Shown here in pieces: positions 54,109 through 62,274 of a stretch of 64,000 nucleotides of DNA. The DNA comes from Blastococcus sp. Marseille-P5729 (GTDB lineage Bacteria > Actinomycetota > Actinomycetes > Mycobacteriales > Antricoccaceae). Made by a program: the position numbers and the translations under genes. Where the stretch lies: contig NZ_OMPO01000002.1 in the NCBI RefSeq assembly GCF_900292035.1, forward strand, positions 558,001 to 622,000, written 5' to 3'. The number at the start of each line of letters is the position of its first letter. Position 1 is the first letter of the stretch. The notes beneath the pieces were generated by a model that worked only from the letters and a program-made list of their open reading frames with translations, was not told the origin of the DNA and made no database searches.

Positions 54109-54661
54109 CCACGGCCGTCGAGCGAGGGAGCGCCAGCGACCGACGCCGACACGCCGCACCCTCCCGGCAGCACCACACCCCACGGTCGCCGAGCGAGGGA
54201 GCGCCAGCGACCGACGCCGACACGCCGCACCCTCCCGGCAGCACCACACCCCACGGTCGCCGAGCGAGGGAGCGCCAGCGACCGACGCCGACACGCCACA
54301 ACCTCCCGGCAGCACCACACCCCACGGTCGTCGAGCGAGGGAGCGCCAGCGACCGACGCCGACACGCCGCACCCTCCCGGCAGCACCACACCCCACGGTC
54401 GTCGAGCGAGGGAGCGCCAGCGACCGACGCCGAGACGCCGCACCCTCCCGGCAGCACCACACCCCACGGTCGTCGAGCGAGGGAGCGCCAGCGACCGACG
54501 CCGAGACGCCACACCCTCCCGGCAGCACCACACCCCACGGCCGTCGAGCGAGGGAGCGCCAGCGACCGACACCGACACGCCACACCCTCCCGGCAGCACC
54601 ACACCCCACGGTCGTCGAGCGAGGGAGCGCCAGCGACCGACGCCGAGACGCCACAACCTTC
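54109..54661. repeat. 71-bp tandem repeat array (about 7.8 copies)
   Basis: GAGCGAGGGAGCGCCAGCGA recurs at 54120, 54191, 54262, 54333, 54404, 54475, 54546 and 54617, a strict 71-bp period. The copies differ at a few sites (CCGACAC or CCGAGAC; CCGCACC, CCACACC or CCACAAC; CGGTCGTC, CGGTCGCC or CGGCCGTC). It fills the convergent gap between the thioesterase and hydrolase genes. Because 71 is not a multiple of three it leaves no sustained coding sense; the long frames crossing it are artefacts. It is not a CRISPR: there are no unique spacers. Confidence 0.95.
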
Positions 54662-54663
54662 CG

Positions 54664-55554
54664 TCAGGACCACCTGCGGATGAACTCCGCTGTCGCGGCG
54701 TTGACCTCGGTCGGGTGCGAGGCGCTGAGGAAGTGCTGGCCGTCGTCGATCACCTTCAGCTCGGCGTTCTCGGATCGAGTGAACCGCGCGATGCCGTCCT
54801 CGGCGTTGGGCACCGAGTACACCGCGTCGGCCGTACCGTGCAGCCAGAGCATCGGGCAGCGCACTTGGTCGAGGCGGCCGAGGAGGCCGTCCCGGTCGCG
54901 GAGGTTGATGCTGATGGTGCGCAGCCGCTGGCGGCCGTCGTCTCCGCGGTAGTTCTGCTGGTGGGTCTCGTGCCAGAACGTACGGTCCTCGTCGCTGACC
55001 GTGTCGCCCAACCCGGCCTCGAGGACGGCGTCCACCAGTTCGGTCGGGATCACCCAGTCGTCACCGACCTCGACGGCGAGGGAGTCGATCGCGGGCGTGC
55101 AGAACTCGATGCCGTCCCAGCAGCCGAGCTCGCGGCTGCGCTCGCTCTCGTAGTCCATCGAGGTGCCGAGCGGCACGATTCCCTTGATCCGGCTCGGCGC
55201 CAGCATCGCCATCCTGGCGGCGATCCAGCCGCCCTGCGAGGTGCCGAGCACGAAGGCGTTCTCGATACGGAGCGCGTCGAGCACCTGGATGTTGGCGATC
55301 GCGCTGTCCCAGTAGGTGAAGTCGTGTAGGCCAGCGCGGGTCAGGCCGTGGCCGTAGGGCTCGATCGCCAGCAGGTTGGCGGTCTGGGCCAGCTCGTCGT
55401 CCTCGAACTGCGGACGGTAGAGCTCGGCCGAGGTGCTGAACGAGTTGGACATGACCAAGGTGGGCAGCGTCGGGTCGTATGCCTTGCCGAGCCGGTAGCC
55501 GAGGGCGGACCCGCCGAGGTGGGTGATCTCCATGGTCTCGCTGTCGCTGGTCAT
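54664..55554 (-). CDS. alpha/beta hydrolase
   Basis: 296-aa alpha/beta-fold hydrolase. The oxyanion region is LVMSNSFSTSAELYRPQF, the nucleophile elbow GTSQGG near residue 116 carries the catalytic Ser, and the acid and His lie in LHGTADAVYSVPNAEDGI and DDGQHFLSASHP. The family includes 3-oxoadipate enol-lactonase-like and haloperoxidase-like enzymes; the substrate is unknown. The ATG at 55554 has GGGAGGA upstream. The TGA stop lies three bases from the 71-bp array. Confidence 0.9.
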   Translation of the reverse strand: MTSDSETMEITHLGGSALGYRLGKAYDPTLPTLVMSNSFSTSAELYRPQFEDDELAQTANLLAIEPYGHGLTRAGLHDFTYWDSAIANIQVLDALRIENAFVLGTSQGGWIAARMAMLAPSRIKGIVPLGTSMDYESERSRELGCWDGIEFCTPAIDSLAVEVGDDWVIPTELVDAVLEAGLGDTVSDEDRTFWHETHQQNYRGDDGRQRLRTISINLRDRDGLLGRLDQVRCPMLWLHGTADAVYSVPNAEDGIARFTRSENAELKVIDDGQHFLSASHPTEVNAATAEFIRRWS

Positions 55555-56690: not shown

Positions 56691-56863
56691 TCAGTAGCGT
56701 TCGTCGTACGCTGCGGTGCGGCCTTCGGCGAGCTCCTCGTACGTCGCAGCGATAACGTGACCCTCAGCTCGAATGGCCGGATCGCTGGGATCCAGCAACG
56801 CGGCGGCGCGCGTCAGGGCCGAAGTCGAGAGGATGACCAGCAGCGCGACGGCCGCGGGAATCC
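56691..56863 (-). pseudogene. C-terminal remnant of a membrane protein
   Basis: The minus-strand frame from about 56863 to the TGA at 56691-56693 encodes one hydrophobic helix (IPAAVALLVILSTSALTRAAALL) then DPSDPAIRAEGHVIAATYEELAEG and a short end. It has no start. It is joined out of frame to the PstS remnant on its left flank. It is possibly the last TM helix and tail of a mycobacterial-type wall protein; I cannot name it. Confidence 0.4.
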
Positions 56864-57268
56864 GTCTCGTAGTCCGGCCGGATCGCCCCGGCCTCGCCCA
56901 CCACTGCCTCGGTGAAGTAGTCGAAGGTGCCTGACTCCTCCGGGCGGCCGTAGAGCCCGATTTCCTCGTCCGGCCAGTCGGGGTTGACGTCGGACCAGCT
57001 CGTCACCTCGGAGTCGGGTTCCCAGATCTGCTTGAGCTCGTCGAGGGTGATGTCGTCGACGTCGGTGTTCTCGGCGTTCACGACGATCGCCAACGAGTCG
57101 AGCGCGATTGGCAGCTCGCTGGTCATCATGGTGGTCTTCGGCGCGACCGTAGATGAGCCGGAGATCTGGATCGGACCCGTCTCGCTCTCCCTTGTTGGAG
57201 CTGGAGCAAGCGGTCAGCCCCGTGACGAGACCGATGATGGTGGCCGAGACGAGAACCTTGGTGCACAC
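56864..57268 (-). pseudogene. phosphate-binding protein PstS-like, frameshifted remnant
   Basis: The N-terminal lipoprotein signal (GTG at 57268; CTKVLVSATIIGLVTGLTAC with lipobox Cys) is in one frame. The PstS body (LPIALDSLAIVVNAENTDVDD, then LKQIWEPDSEVTSWSDVNPDWPDEEIGLYG, SGTFDYFTEAVVGEAG) is in another. About 50 codons expected between them are missing or scrambled, and the C-terminal domain is absent. A GGAGG site upstream of the GTG shows that it was once translated. It is now decayed. Confidence 0.75.
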
Positions 57269-57289
57269 GTCGTCCTCCTGTTGCAGACA

Positions 57290-57295
57290 TAGAGT
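57290..57295 (+). promoter_or_regulatory. -10 box of topoisomerase IB gene (leaderless)
   Basis: TAGAGT, seven bases before the ATG at 57303. Confidence 0.5.
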
Positions 57296-57302
57296 CGTGC
57301 GC

Positions 57303-58304
57303 ATGAGACTGAGACGGGTCGACCCTCGATCCCCCGGCTGGAGCCGGCGGCGGGCGGGACGGGGCTTCTCCTACCGCGACCAGCACGACAAGCCACTGTC
57401 CGCTGAGGACGTCGACCGGGTGAAGTCGCTGGCCATCCCGCCGGCCTGGAAGGACGTGTGGATCTGCCCGATCGCCAACGGCCACATCCAGGCGATCGGC
57501 ACCGACGACGCCGGACGGCGCCAGTACGTCTACCACCCTGCGTGGCGGACGAAGCGGGACGAGCTGAAGTTCGATCGCGTGAAGGACGCCGGCGTGCGGC
57601 TCGCGCGTGCCCGCACCCGCATGATCGCGGATCTCACGACAGACGGCATGCCGCTCAGTCGCGCAGCCGCGACGGCCACCCGGCTGCTGGATCTCGGCTA
57701 CTTCCGGATCGGCAGCGACGCGTACGCCGACGCGAACGGATCGTTCGGGCTGACCACCCTCCTACGCAAGCACGTTCGGCGGCGCGGTGACGATCTGGTG
57801 TTCTCCTTCGTCGGCAAGTCCGGGATCGAGCACTCGATCGTGATCAGCGACCCAGTCGTCATCGACTCGCTGAACCTGATGCGCAGGCGGCGCGGCGGGT
57901 CGGATCGGCTGCTGGCCTACAAGGGGGCCGCCGCGTGGGCCGACCTCGACGCGACCGCAGTGAACGAGTACATCTCGCAGATGGTCTCGGAGGATCTGAC
58001 GGCGAAGGACTTCCGCACCTGGCACGCCACGGTTATCGCCGCGACGGCGCTGGCCGAGAGCGACGAGCCGGGTGACACCAAGGCCTCTCGTAACCGGGCG
58101 ATCAAGGCCGCCGTCGAGGAGGTCGCGGCGTACCTGGGCAACACGCCGACGATCGCCAAGAAGTCCTACATCGACCCGCGAGTGATCGAGCAGTACGAGG
58201 ACGGGGTCACCATCGCGCCGACGTTGGCCCGCAAACTCAAGGATCCCGACAAGCACCTCGCCGCCATCGAGCGCGCGGTAGCGCGGCTCATCGACGGAGC
58301 ATAA
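57303..58304 (+). CDS. DNA topoisomerase IB
   Basis: 333-aa bacterial/poxvirus-type topoisomerase IB that relaxes supercoils through a 3'-phosphotyrosine intermediate. The N-terminal domain has GRGFSYRD and IPPAWKDVWICP. The catalytic domain shows FRIGSDAYADANGSFGLTTLLRKHV, FVGKSGIEHSI, and the C-terminal tyrosine motif SYIDPRVIEQYEDG. The conserved Arg-Lys-Arg residues are in place. The ATG at 57303 follows a leaderless -10 box; the upstream open frame runs through PstS debris. Confidence 0.93.
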   Translation: MRLRRVDPRSPGWSRRRAGRGFSYRDQHDKPLSAEDVDRVKSLAIPPAWKDVWICPIANGHIQAIGTDDAGRRQYVYHPAWRTKRDELKFDRVKDAGVRLARARTRMIADLTTDGMPLSRAAATATRLLDLGYFRIGSDAYADANGSFGLTTLLRKHVRRRGDDLVFSFVGKSGIEHSIVISDPVVIDSLNLMRRRRGGSDRLLAYKGAAAWADLDATAVNEYISQMVSEDLTAKDFRTWHATVIAATALAESDEPGDTKASRNRAIKAAVEEVAAYLGNTPTIAKKSYIDPRVIEQYEDGVTIAPTLARKLKDPDKHLAAIERAVARLIDGA

Positions 58305-58466: not shown

Positions 58467-58994
58467 CTAGGCCGTGATGGCCGCAACGATGTCGGCGTAC
58501 GCCGCCTCGGCGTAGGCGCGCATCTCGTCGTCTGTGCGGTCCTGGATCGGGTGCGGGGTGAAGACCCGCGCCGCAGAAGGAAAGCCGAGCGAGACGGCCT
58601 GCACCTCGGCAGCCGAGACGAACTCCGCTGAGGCGGCGAAGACGCCGGGGATGCCTCGCAGCTCGAGGTCGCTGATGTCATGCACACTGCACGACGTGCA
58701 GCTGCCTCAATCGGCGAGCGCCTCGATGACCGAGTCGCACTGGGTGGCGATCTCGTGGCGCAGGTCGACCGGCGCGGGCTTGGTGAAGGTCGGCTTGGCG
58801 TAGCGGGTGACGCGGGCGCCGTCCGCAGTCAGCAGTTCCTCAAGCCGGTCGAGGAAGACGTTGCCGCGGGGCTTGGAGATGTCCAGGAGCGCGATCCGGA
58901 GTCCGTCGATGGACGGTGGGCGATCCAGGAGCTGGCGCTCGGATACGTTGCGCTCTCCCGTTGGGTCGAGCACGAAGCGTCCGGCTGCACTCAT
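58467..58994 (-). CDS. UGSC-family selenoprotein (in-frame UGA read as selenocysteine)
   Basis: 175-residue protein if the UGA at 58709-58707 is decoded as Sec at residue 96. Before it the frame reads IATQCDSVIEALAD; after it, in the same frame, GSCTSCSVHDISDLELRGIPGV and on to a normal stop at 58467. This gives the motif U-G-S-C that names the (seleno)protein family. The first part contains IDGLRIALLDISKPRGNVFLDRLEELL, and the second FPSAARVFTPHPIQDRTDDEMR. The ATG overlaps the stop of the upstream thioredoxin-like gene (ATGA). A reading as two separate genes is unlikely because both halves are homologous to one family. Redox role inferred. Confidence 0.88.
58687..58709 (-). promoter_or_regulatory. 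selenocysteine UGA and candidate SECIS hairpin
   Basis: The UGA is at 58709-58707. A 6-bp stem CTGCAC/GTGCAG (58701-58696 and 58692-58687) closes the 3-base loop GUC; G and U in the loop fit bacterial SECIS elements. The loop begins 14 bases after the U of UGA, closer than the usual 16-37. A second hairpin CCTCG-agctg-CGAGG (58668-58654) lies about 41 bases downstream. Confidence 0.45.
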
Positions 58995-60466
58995 TTGACT
59001 ACCTCCTTGGTGACGGGGTCGGAGCCGGTGGCCCCGTTGACCCATCCGGCGATGATCTCAGAGAACAGGCCAGCCTCGCCGCCCGCGTACGCGAGCAGGA
59101 TCCCGTTCTTGCGGAACTTCGGGACGGTGCCTCCGGCGCTGTCGCCGGTATCGATGCTGCCACCGATCGCGCCGGACCCGGCCGCGACGTCGATGCCCTC
59201 AGCCATGCCGCCGGCGCCGATCGCCACCTCATCGAGGGGAAGCTGGAGGTGGGAATGCAGCTCGTCGAGGATCCGCTGTCTCGACCACCCGGCGTCGGTG
59301 AACACGCGCCCGTGCTCGGGCCCGATCACGAGAATCGCGTCGAATCCGAGCGGCAGCTTGGGGTGATGGACGGTGCGGAGCGACGCGGCCAGCGAGCGCA
59401 CGAGGCTCTCGGGGTCGCGTGACTTCTGGTCGACGACGCACCGGGGGCCTTCGCCGGCGAAGACGGTGAGAGCATCCCTGCCGGGGGCGGCGCCGCGGCT
59501 CTCAGCGAGGGTCCCGAACGGCGAGTCGGGGCGCTCGGCAAAGCAGAACGAGAGCTTCCCGGGGTTGCCGTGCGTGGCACGGTCCACCTCACCGGGACGT
59601 CCACCGCCGACGTTGCGGACGACGAGCTGGACGGCGCGCCCGATCGTGAGGTTCGCCCGATTGCCCTGACCGAGCGCGTTGACGCCGGAATTCATCCCGA
59701 TCGCCTGCGTGCCTGGGCCGCTGCAGACGATGACCGGGCCGACCGGCATCGTCGTGGCGAGCACGCCGTGCATGTTGAACTCGTCAGTGCAGACCGCTTC
59801 GAGCGCGGCAAGCACCCACGGGAGGTGCTCGGGCAAGCAGCCGGCCATGACGGCGGCGATGGCGACCTTCTCGACGGTGCACTCGACGAGATCGGGCGGG
59901 ACGAGGCAGACGACGTCCGACGGGTCACGCGTGGTGCCGTCGAGCATGCGGAGGACACGCTCCTCGGTGGGCGCGACGACGGGCAGGCCGTCGGTCCAGC
60001 CGCGGGCGAACATCGCCTCGTGCTCGTCCTCGAGGTCGGCCAGCTCGATCCGTCGCGCGTGCAGCACGCCTCCTTCGAAGCGCACCCGCAGCTCGTCGAC
60101 CTTGTCGGGATCGACCGACATCGACCCGCAGCCCGGGCGCATCACCGGGAGGTCCCTGCCCAGGTCAGCGATGCCGGTGATCCGCTGCCAGTCGTCCTGC
60201 GACCAGCCAATCGTGCGCTCGACCTCCTCGCCGTCCACGACACGGATCAGCGTCGGCACGGTCTCGATGTCGTGGTGCCAGCTGACGGCCAGATCGTCAT
60301 CGTGGATGGGATCGGTACCGGCAGGGAATGCCGGATCGTCCTGCGTGTAGACGGTCGCGCTGGGCAGCTCGGCAAGGAGCGGGGCGACGAGCTGACAGGT
60401 GGCGCACTCAGACTTCACAACCACCACCAGGCCGTCCGGAAGCGTAGGTGTCTCGCTCACTCGCAT
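58991..60466 (-). CDS. thioredoxin-fold protein, UGSC selenoprotein partner
   Basis: 491-aa protein. Residues 8-100 look thioredoxin-like: VVVVKSECATCQLVAPLL has a CATC active-site-like motif and ETVPTLIRV supplies the cis-Pro. The rest is a large Gly-rich domain (RPGCGSMSVDPDK, FARGWTDGLPVVAPTEERVLRML, VNALGQGNRANLTIGRAVQLVVRNVGG, GEAGLFSEIIAGWVNGAT) found next to UGSC proteins. GGAGG lies before the ATG at 60466. Its stop overlaps the UGSC start. Probably it reduces, or is reduced by, the selenoprotein; the substrate is unknown. Confidence 0.75.
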   Translation of the reverse strand: MRVSETPTLPDGLVVVVKSECATCQLVAPLLAELPSATVYTQDDPAFPAGTDPIHDDDLAVSWHHDIETVPTLIRVVDGEEVERTIGWSQDDWQRITGIADLGRDLPVMRPGCGSMSVDPDKVDELRVRFEGGVLHARRIELADLEDEHEAMFARGWTDGLPVVAPTEERVLRMLDGTTRDPSDVVCLVPPDLVECTVEKVAIAAVMAGCLPEHLPWVLAALEAVCTDEFNMHGVLATTMPVGPVIVCSGPGTQAIGMNSGVNALGQGNRANLTIGRAVQLVVRNVGGGRPGEVDRATHGNPGKLSFCFAERPDSPFGTLAESRGAAPGRDALTVFAGEGPRCVVDQKSRDPESLVRSLAASLRTVHHPKLPLGFDAILVIGPEHGRVFTDAGWSRQRILDELHSHLQLPLDEVAIGAGGMAEGIDVAAGSGAIGGSIDTGDSAGGTVPKFRKNGILLAYAGGEAGLFSEIIAGWVNGATGSDPVTKEVVK

Positions 60467-60522: not shown

Positions 60523-60580
60523 TGAGCAAGAGGGCATTATTCCCCCCGCTCACGCCCACCCCTCCCTCTCGCCCGATCCT
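60523..60580. repeat. REP-like element, copy 3
   Basis: GAGCAAGAGGGCATTATTCC, then CCCCCGCTCACGCCCACCCC and TCCCTCTCGCCC, immediately upstream of the thioredoxin-fold gene and overlapping the 3' end of the Pro-rich membrane protein gene. Confidence 0.5.
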
Positions 60581-61806: not shown

Positions 61807-62274
61807 GTGCGACCTGAAGTCGTGCTGGTCAGCGCTTGCCTCGCGGGGCAACCCTGCCGTTATGACGGCAGGGCACGCCCTGACGATTCCATCGTGGAAG
61901 AGGTCAAGGCCGGTCGTGCGATTCCCGCATGCGCCGAACAACTCGGCGGGCTGCCGACACCAAGAGCTGCCGCTGAGATCTTCGGCGGTGACGGGCACGA
62001 TGTGCTTGACGGTGAAGCGAAGGTCCTAACCATCGACGGCGAAGACGTAACTGCCCCGTTTGTCGAGGGCGCCCAGATCGTTGCTGGCATTGCCGCTGAG
62101 CACGGCGCGACTCACGCAGTGCTCCAAGCCCGTAGCCCCTCGTGTGGGTGCGGTGCCGTCTACGACGGCACTCACACAGGTCAGCTCATGGAGGGTGACG
62201 GTGTTGTAGCGGCGTTGCTCAAACGGCAAGGCCTGATGATCACGACGGTCCGGGGTCGATCCCAGCATCGATAG
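61807..62274 (+). CDS. DUF523 family protein
   Basis: 155-aa protein of the DUF523 family. Conserved parts are VSACLAGQPCRYDGRARPDDS (CxxxxxC) at the N-terminus and ARSPSCGCGAVYDGTHTG with a second Cys pair, suggesting a metal or redox site. Related proteins are common in bacteria and lack a confirmed function. The GTG start is supported by a leaderless -10 box. A short terminator-like hairpin follows. Confidence 0.9.
   Translation: MRPEVVLVSACLAGQPCRYDGRARPDDSIVEEVKAGRAIPACAEQLGGLPTPRAAAEIFGGDGHDVLDGEAKVLTIDGEDVTAPFVEGAQIVAGIAAEHGATHAVLQARSPSCGCGAVYDGTHTGQLMEGDGVVAALLKRQGLMITTVRGRSQHR

Follow-up and report, generated by a model that had tools for sequence, protein, structure and literature searches.

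The UGSC gene and its reading frame

Two overlapping genes occupy the minus strand between positions 58,467 and 60,466 of the window, by which we mean the whole 64,000-nucleotide stretch of DNA from Blastococcus sp. Marseille-P5729 that was analysed. The features discussed below are as follows.

58467..58994, minus strand: very probable UGSC-family selenoprotein gene, 175 aa, with Sec at residue 96 (full-length Pfam and NCBIfam match through the TGA; TGA in close relatives, Cys in distant ones)
58707..58709, minus strand: in-frame TGA, very probably selenocysteine U96 of the U-G-S-C motif (TGA conservation, Sec/Cys exchange, frozen synonymous codons, Sec machinery)
58677..58695, minus strand: predicted bacterial-type SECIS hairpin GUCGUGCA-GUG-UGCAUGAC, 8 bp, with an apical G in the loop (fold z, frozen codons, compensatory pairs)
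58998..59009, approximate, minus strand: Shine-Dalgarno sequence (AAGGAGG) upstream of the ATG at 58994 (read from sequence)
58991..60466, minus strand: partner gene, 491 aa from the ATG at 60466 (upstream in 81/85 loci, CxxC invariant, thioredoxin matches, core unmatched)

When TGA is translated as U, the minus-strand frame from 58994 to 58467 yields 175 residues and a single terminal TAG. Its sole internal stop is the TGA at 58709-58707, at residue 96 in the context ALAD-U-GSCTSC, and here the original prediction was exact in both coordinates and residues. The read-through product matches Pfam family UGSC (PF24696) over residues 8-174 (E 7.7e-45; 153.5 bits against a cut-off of 25) and NCBIfam UGSC_fam (NF041046) over residues 30-173 (E 1.4e-45; 154.9 bits against a cut-off of 125), which bears out the family assignment made in that prediction, and it carries the U/C-G-S-C family motif as UGSC at residues 96-99. 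Because both halves align with one family over the whole length, the in-frame TGA is not there by chance. We therefore consider it very likely that 58467-58994 encodes a UGSC-family selenoprotein in which UGA is decoded as selenocysteine.

The family is already known, and the Blastococcus gene is a new member of it. It was described as a UGSC-containing selenoprotein family from the Global Ocean Sampling data, with no function assigned (PMC2398784), and it is still listed without function (PMC13188914). The Blastococcus protein has the same full-length sequence, U-G-S-C motif and TGA-encoded Sec as PF24696 and NF041046, and we found nothing that sets it apart from the rest of the family.

A strong Shine-Dalgarno sequence, AAGGAGG, precedes the ATG, and the start of the UGSC gene and the stop of the upstream partner gene overlap in a shared ATGA; the UGSC gene is probably the translationally coupled second cistron of this pair. 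It is also a clear example for annotation, as mechanical callers truncate the protein at the TGA. The original prediction had expected such callers to split the gene into two short ones: the first open reading frame does end at the TGA (58707-59045, 112 aa), while the 3' half is absent from the list, which has a cut-off of 80 aa.

Conservation of the TGA and the predicted SECIS hairpin

All 85 loci whose UGSC gene is a close relative have TGA as the Sec codon; this set is 66-78% identical outside the window's own copies. More distant relatives either retain the TGA or show, in the same column, a codon for Cys (three genes, L120, L127 and L128), which answers the question of what homologues carry at residue 96; none of the homologues examined stopped short of the U, the pattern named beforehand as counter-evidence. 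In the alignment that includes distant relatives Cys99 is retained throughout and Cys102 is not. A single scan of viral contigs found no UGSC relatives.

Around the TGA, synonymous sites hardly vary from codon -1 to codon +11: Thr+4 (ACG), Ser+7 (AGT), Val+8 (GTG) and Asp+10 (GAC), for example, are each the same in 84/84 sequences. Outside this stretch, invariant residues use most of their synonymous codons. The fixed codons fold as GUCGUGCA-GUG-UGCAYGAC, a hairpin that spans 14-32 nt after the T of the TGA and has GU in its loop; the fold z is -2.95 for 45 nt including the UGA. Covariation among 40 close sequences rests on one pair. With distant relatives included (19 sequences), four of the eight pairs show compensatory changes, and the observed counts were reached by 0 of 500 shuffles. 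One example is a C-G to G-C exchange that turns Cys into Trp in L025, L129, L130 and L134. In the three Cys-type genes the hairpin is not maintained in register, and an Rfam search around the TGA returned matches at chance level only.

In bacteria, a SECIS element is a hairpin that immediately follows the UGA and has a small apical loop containing a G (PMC1088965), and this is the arrangement found in the UGSC gene. It is thus strongly supported that the hairpin, as predicted from sequence, is a SECIS element of the kind expected in bacteria.

Selenocysteine machinery of the host genome

The Sec machinery was sought in the assembly to which the window belongs (3.33 Mb, 5 contigs). We found selD, a tRNA-Sec gene, selA and selB clustered within 3.6 kb (C2:883932-887440), about 270 kb from the UGSC gene (selD, E 1.7e-115; tRNA-Sec, 81 bits; selA, E 1.7e-121; selB, E 6.5e-74); the original prediction that the organism makes selenocysteine is upheld by the presence of all four. 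Just upstream of selD lies the gene for a formate dehydrogenase large subunit (G000:C2:878247-881600; L019 2247-5600) with a TGA at the usual Sec position, QARI-U-HSATVPG, as read by eye. Together with the UGSC gene, this gives the organism at least two selenoprotein genes.

In the phylum sample, a selA match is present in 22 of the 23 genomes with a TGA-type UGSC gene, compared with 236 of all 396 genomes (Fisher p 1e-4, a guide only, as the genomes are mutually related). The one genome lacking a match, G040, is a 94%-complete assembly. Among genomes with Cys-type UGSC genes, G154 and G106 have no selA match and G298 has one. Decoding of the UGA at 58709-58707 by SelB with Sec-tRNA(Sec), which would read it thanks to the downstream SECIS hairpin, is strongly supported by these sequence features.

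The thioredoxin-fused partner

The partner gene lies upstream of the UGSC gene in 81 of the 85 loci. Three of the four remaining loci have less than 700 bases of upstream sequence available, and L092 alone has room yet no partner; in L031 the partner sits about 1.1 kb further away. The UGSC/partner pair is directly preceded by selA and selB in about a dozen acidimicrobial loci. Besides the ATG at 60466, an upstream GTG at 60559 is also a possible start of the Blastococcus partner.

The N-terminus of the partner is a thioredoxin-like domain with a CATC motif (C21 and C24 of P0002). The CxxC is invariant (72/72), and a fold search with the partner led from its N-terminus to thioredoxins. A fumarase match for the whole chain (probability 0.57, TM 0.17) was too weak and was rejected. 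The core, about residues 147-490, matched no Pfam or NCBIfam family.

Distant UGSC genes also have a core gene next to them, on either side, and in most cases it lacks the thioredoxin domain; in L026 the core is fused behind UGSC in a single frame. A fusion of UGSC to a domain called Unknown_1 has been reported (PMC2398784); the Blastococcus neighbour differs in that it stands as a gene of its own and carries an additional thioredoxin domain. Two further, divergent UGSC genes, L025 and L026 (G001:C2:292691-294842), each with a core-domain partner, are present in a relative from the same family.

Predicted fold and probable remote kinship with PrdB and GrdB

AlphaFold2 gave a model of the UGSC protein, computed with Cys in place of Sec96, at moderate confidence (pLDDT 78, pTM 0.75). 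It consists of five alternating strand-helix units in a Rossmann-like arrangement and places Sec96 between the third strand and the next helix. A fold search of the PDB with this model gave weak matches, largely of Rossmann or flavodoxin type and none specific (TM <0.57), and a sequence search of the PDB gave nothing significant.

In profile comparison against a PrdB-like profile, built from 16 selenoproteins that are PF07355 relatives from the same phylum, the UGSC protein aligned Sec on Sec with a probability of 88.7% and a score of 45.7. The best of 100 column shuffles scored 25.2 and the reversed profile 11.8, and masking of UGSCTSC left a score of 40.2. The direct comparison with a GrdB profile was weaker (46.4%, score 33.6), yet above all shuffles, and the PrdB-like and GrdB profiles matched each other at 99.8%. 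The segment after the Sec is also similar, with E-x-x-G-I-P followed by HP or FP. These comparisons, together with the predicted fold, suggest that UGSC is remotely related to PrdB (D-proline reductase) and GrdB (glycine reductase) of the PF07355 superfamily. We claim kinship and not membership because the UGSC protein does not match PF07355: UGSC was its only match in a Pfam search to E 10. The window's own genome also contains no PF07355 match.

The UGSC protein further differs from PrdB and GrdB in being shorter (175 aa) and in having a partner whose core is unlike GrdE; the core reached 0.1% against a GrdE-like profile and showed no similarity to the GrdB profile. By analogy with those enzymes, a partner subunit and thiol-fed recycling would be expected for UGSC. 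The two-subunit likeness to glycine reductase would thus be a functional one. As far as a limited literature search shows, neither the anatomy of the partner nor the PrdB/GrdB kinship of UGSC has been described before. Numerous short PrdB-like selenoproteins with a U-P-x-C or similar motif (L156-L171) occur in Actinomycetota, outside the classical amino-acid-fermenting clostridia.

Origin of the operon

Order- and class-level relatives of the window's genome mostly lack a UGSC gene. When UGSC and partner are taken together in one tree, the pairs from the window and from other members of its family nest inside Acidimicrobiia sequences, with Desertimonas flava as the nearest. Because the operon nests among Acidimicrobiia and the host genome belongs to another class, the tree suggests horizontal transfer of the UGSC operon. 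Identity to the acidimicrobial proteins is only 40-46% for the window's SelA, as against 66-78% for UGSC. This gap would fit a transfer in which the operon entered a lineage that had Sec machinery of its own; alternatively, SelA and UGSC may simply differ in evolutionary rate. This likely horizontal origin, like the SECIS hairpin, the thioredoxin-fused partner and the link to PrdB and GrdB, goes beyond the original prediction.

Proposed function of the UGSC/partner pair

Our proposal starts from features that can be read at the locus itself, namely the predicted Sec decoding signals, the UxxC motif, a partner with CxxC, and the overlapping start and stop. The Sec96 selenolate, positioned at a helix N-terminus in the alpha/beta Rossmann-like domain, would attack a small-molecule substrate bound or presented by the partner core, and the reaction would be a reductive cleavage or a reduction. 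A selenenylsulfide would then form between Sec96 and Cys99, to be recycled by the CxxC (CATC) thioredoxin domain of the partner. We put this function forward tentatively as a whole, and judge it somewhat short of probable.

PrdB and GrdB are catalytic subunits, and this bears on where the chemistry of the pair resides. A different possibility is that the partner core is the catalyst of a biosynthetic or detoxifying enzyme, and that UGSC only relays to it the reducing equivalents of the thioredoxin domain. The core, which is the larger protein part, is well conserved, with C210 and C308 kept in at least 90% of a diverse set, and distant groups have the core next to UGSC without any thioredoxin domain. 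Against this, Sec is the most reactive group of the pair, and the relatives of UGSC are themselves the catalytic components of their enzymes. We regard catalysis by the core as unlikely, although a serious alternative.

It was suggested for the family in 2008 that UGSC is a thioredoxin-fold thiol-disulfide oxidoreductase, that is, a general redox protein. UGSC does share the UxxC redox motif with thioredoxin-fold selenoproteins (Trx-like, Prx-like and SelW-like), and its fusion to another domain is in keeping with such a role. The predicted fold differs, however: in the model strands and helices alternate and Sec follows the third strand, and among the listed best PDB matches a thioredoxin structure appears only for the partner and none for UGSC. 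Moreover, UGSC compared with the partner profile, thioredoxin domain included, reached 0.6% without aligning UxxC to CxxC, and the partner already fills the thioredoxin role. We reject a thioredoxin fold for UGSC on the topology of the moderate-confidence model and on the PDB comparison, and consider it improbable.

The end of the mechanical ORF call at the TGA might suggest a plain stop, a sequencing error or a mutation in a pseudogene. This is exceedingly improbable and is rejected as contradicted by the comparative data: all 85 relatives, taken from many independent assemblies, have the TGA, homology and coding constraint run on for 79 residues, Cys replaces U in distant homologues, the hairpin covaries and the Sec machinery is present.

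Returning to Sec96 as the attacking group, UGSC and its partner may constitute a third, so far unrecognised branch of the PrdB/GrdB kind: a compact two-subunit, thioredoxin-fed Sec reductase for a small substrate, widespread in Acidimicrobiia and horizontally spread, whose core would be a new protein family. We hold this broader reading with a little less than even confidence. With a linked partner whose CxxC is invariant, gene fusion in occasional cases and a relation to PrdB and GrdB, what was an 'unknown redox protein' becomes a reductase hypothesis that can be tested and that names its reductant.

Other features of the window

A bacterial DNA topoisomerase IB gene (PF01028, PF21338; 57153-58304, plus strand) is convergent with the UGSC operon, and a 2-thiouracil desulfurase family protein (PF04463) is encoded at 61807-62274 on the plus strand. 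At 56764-57304 on the minus strand, a phosphate-binding-protein-like ORF (PF12849) matches only part of the profile and is overlapped by ORFs in another frame; it may be frameshifted or a remnant. Between two genes at 54109-54673, a 71-bp unit is repeated eight times head-to-tail with 96% likeness, and this array yields long spurious ORFs on both strands.
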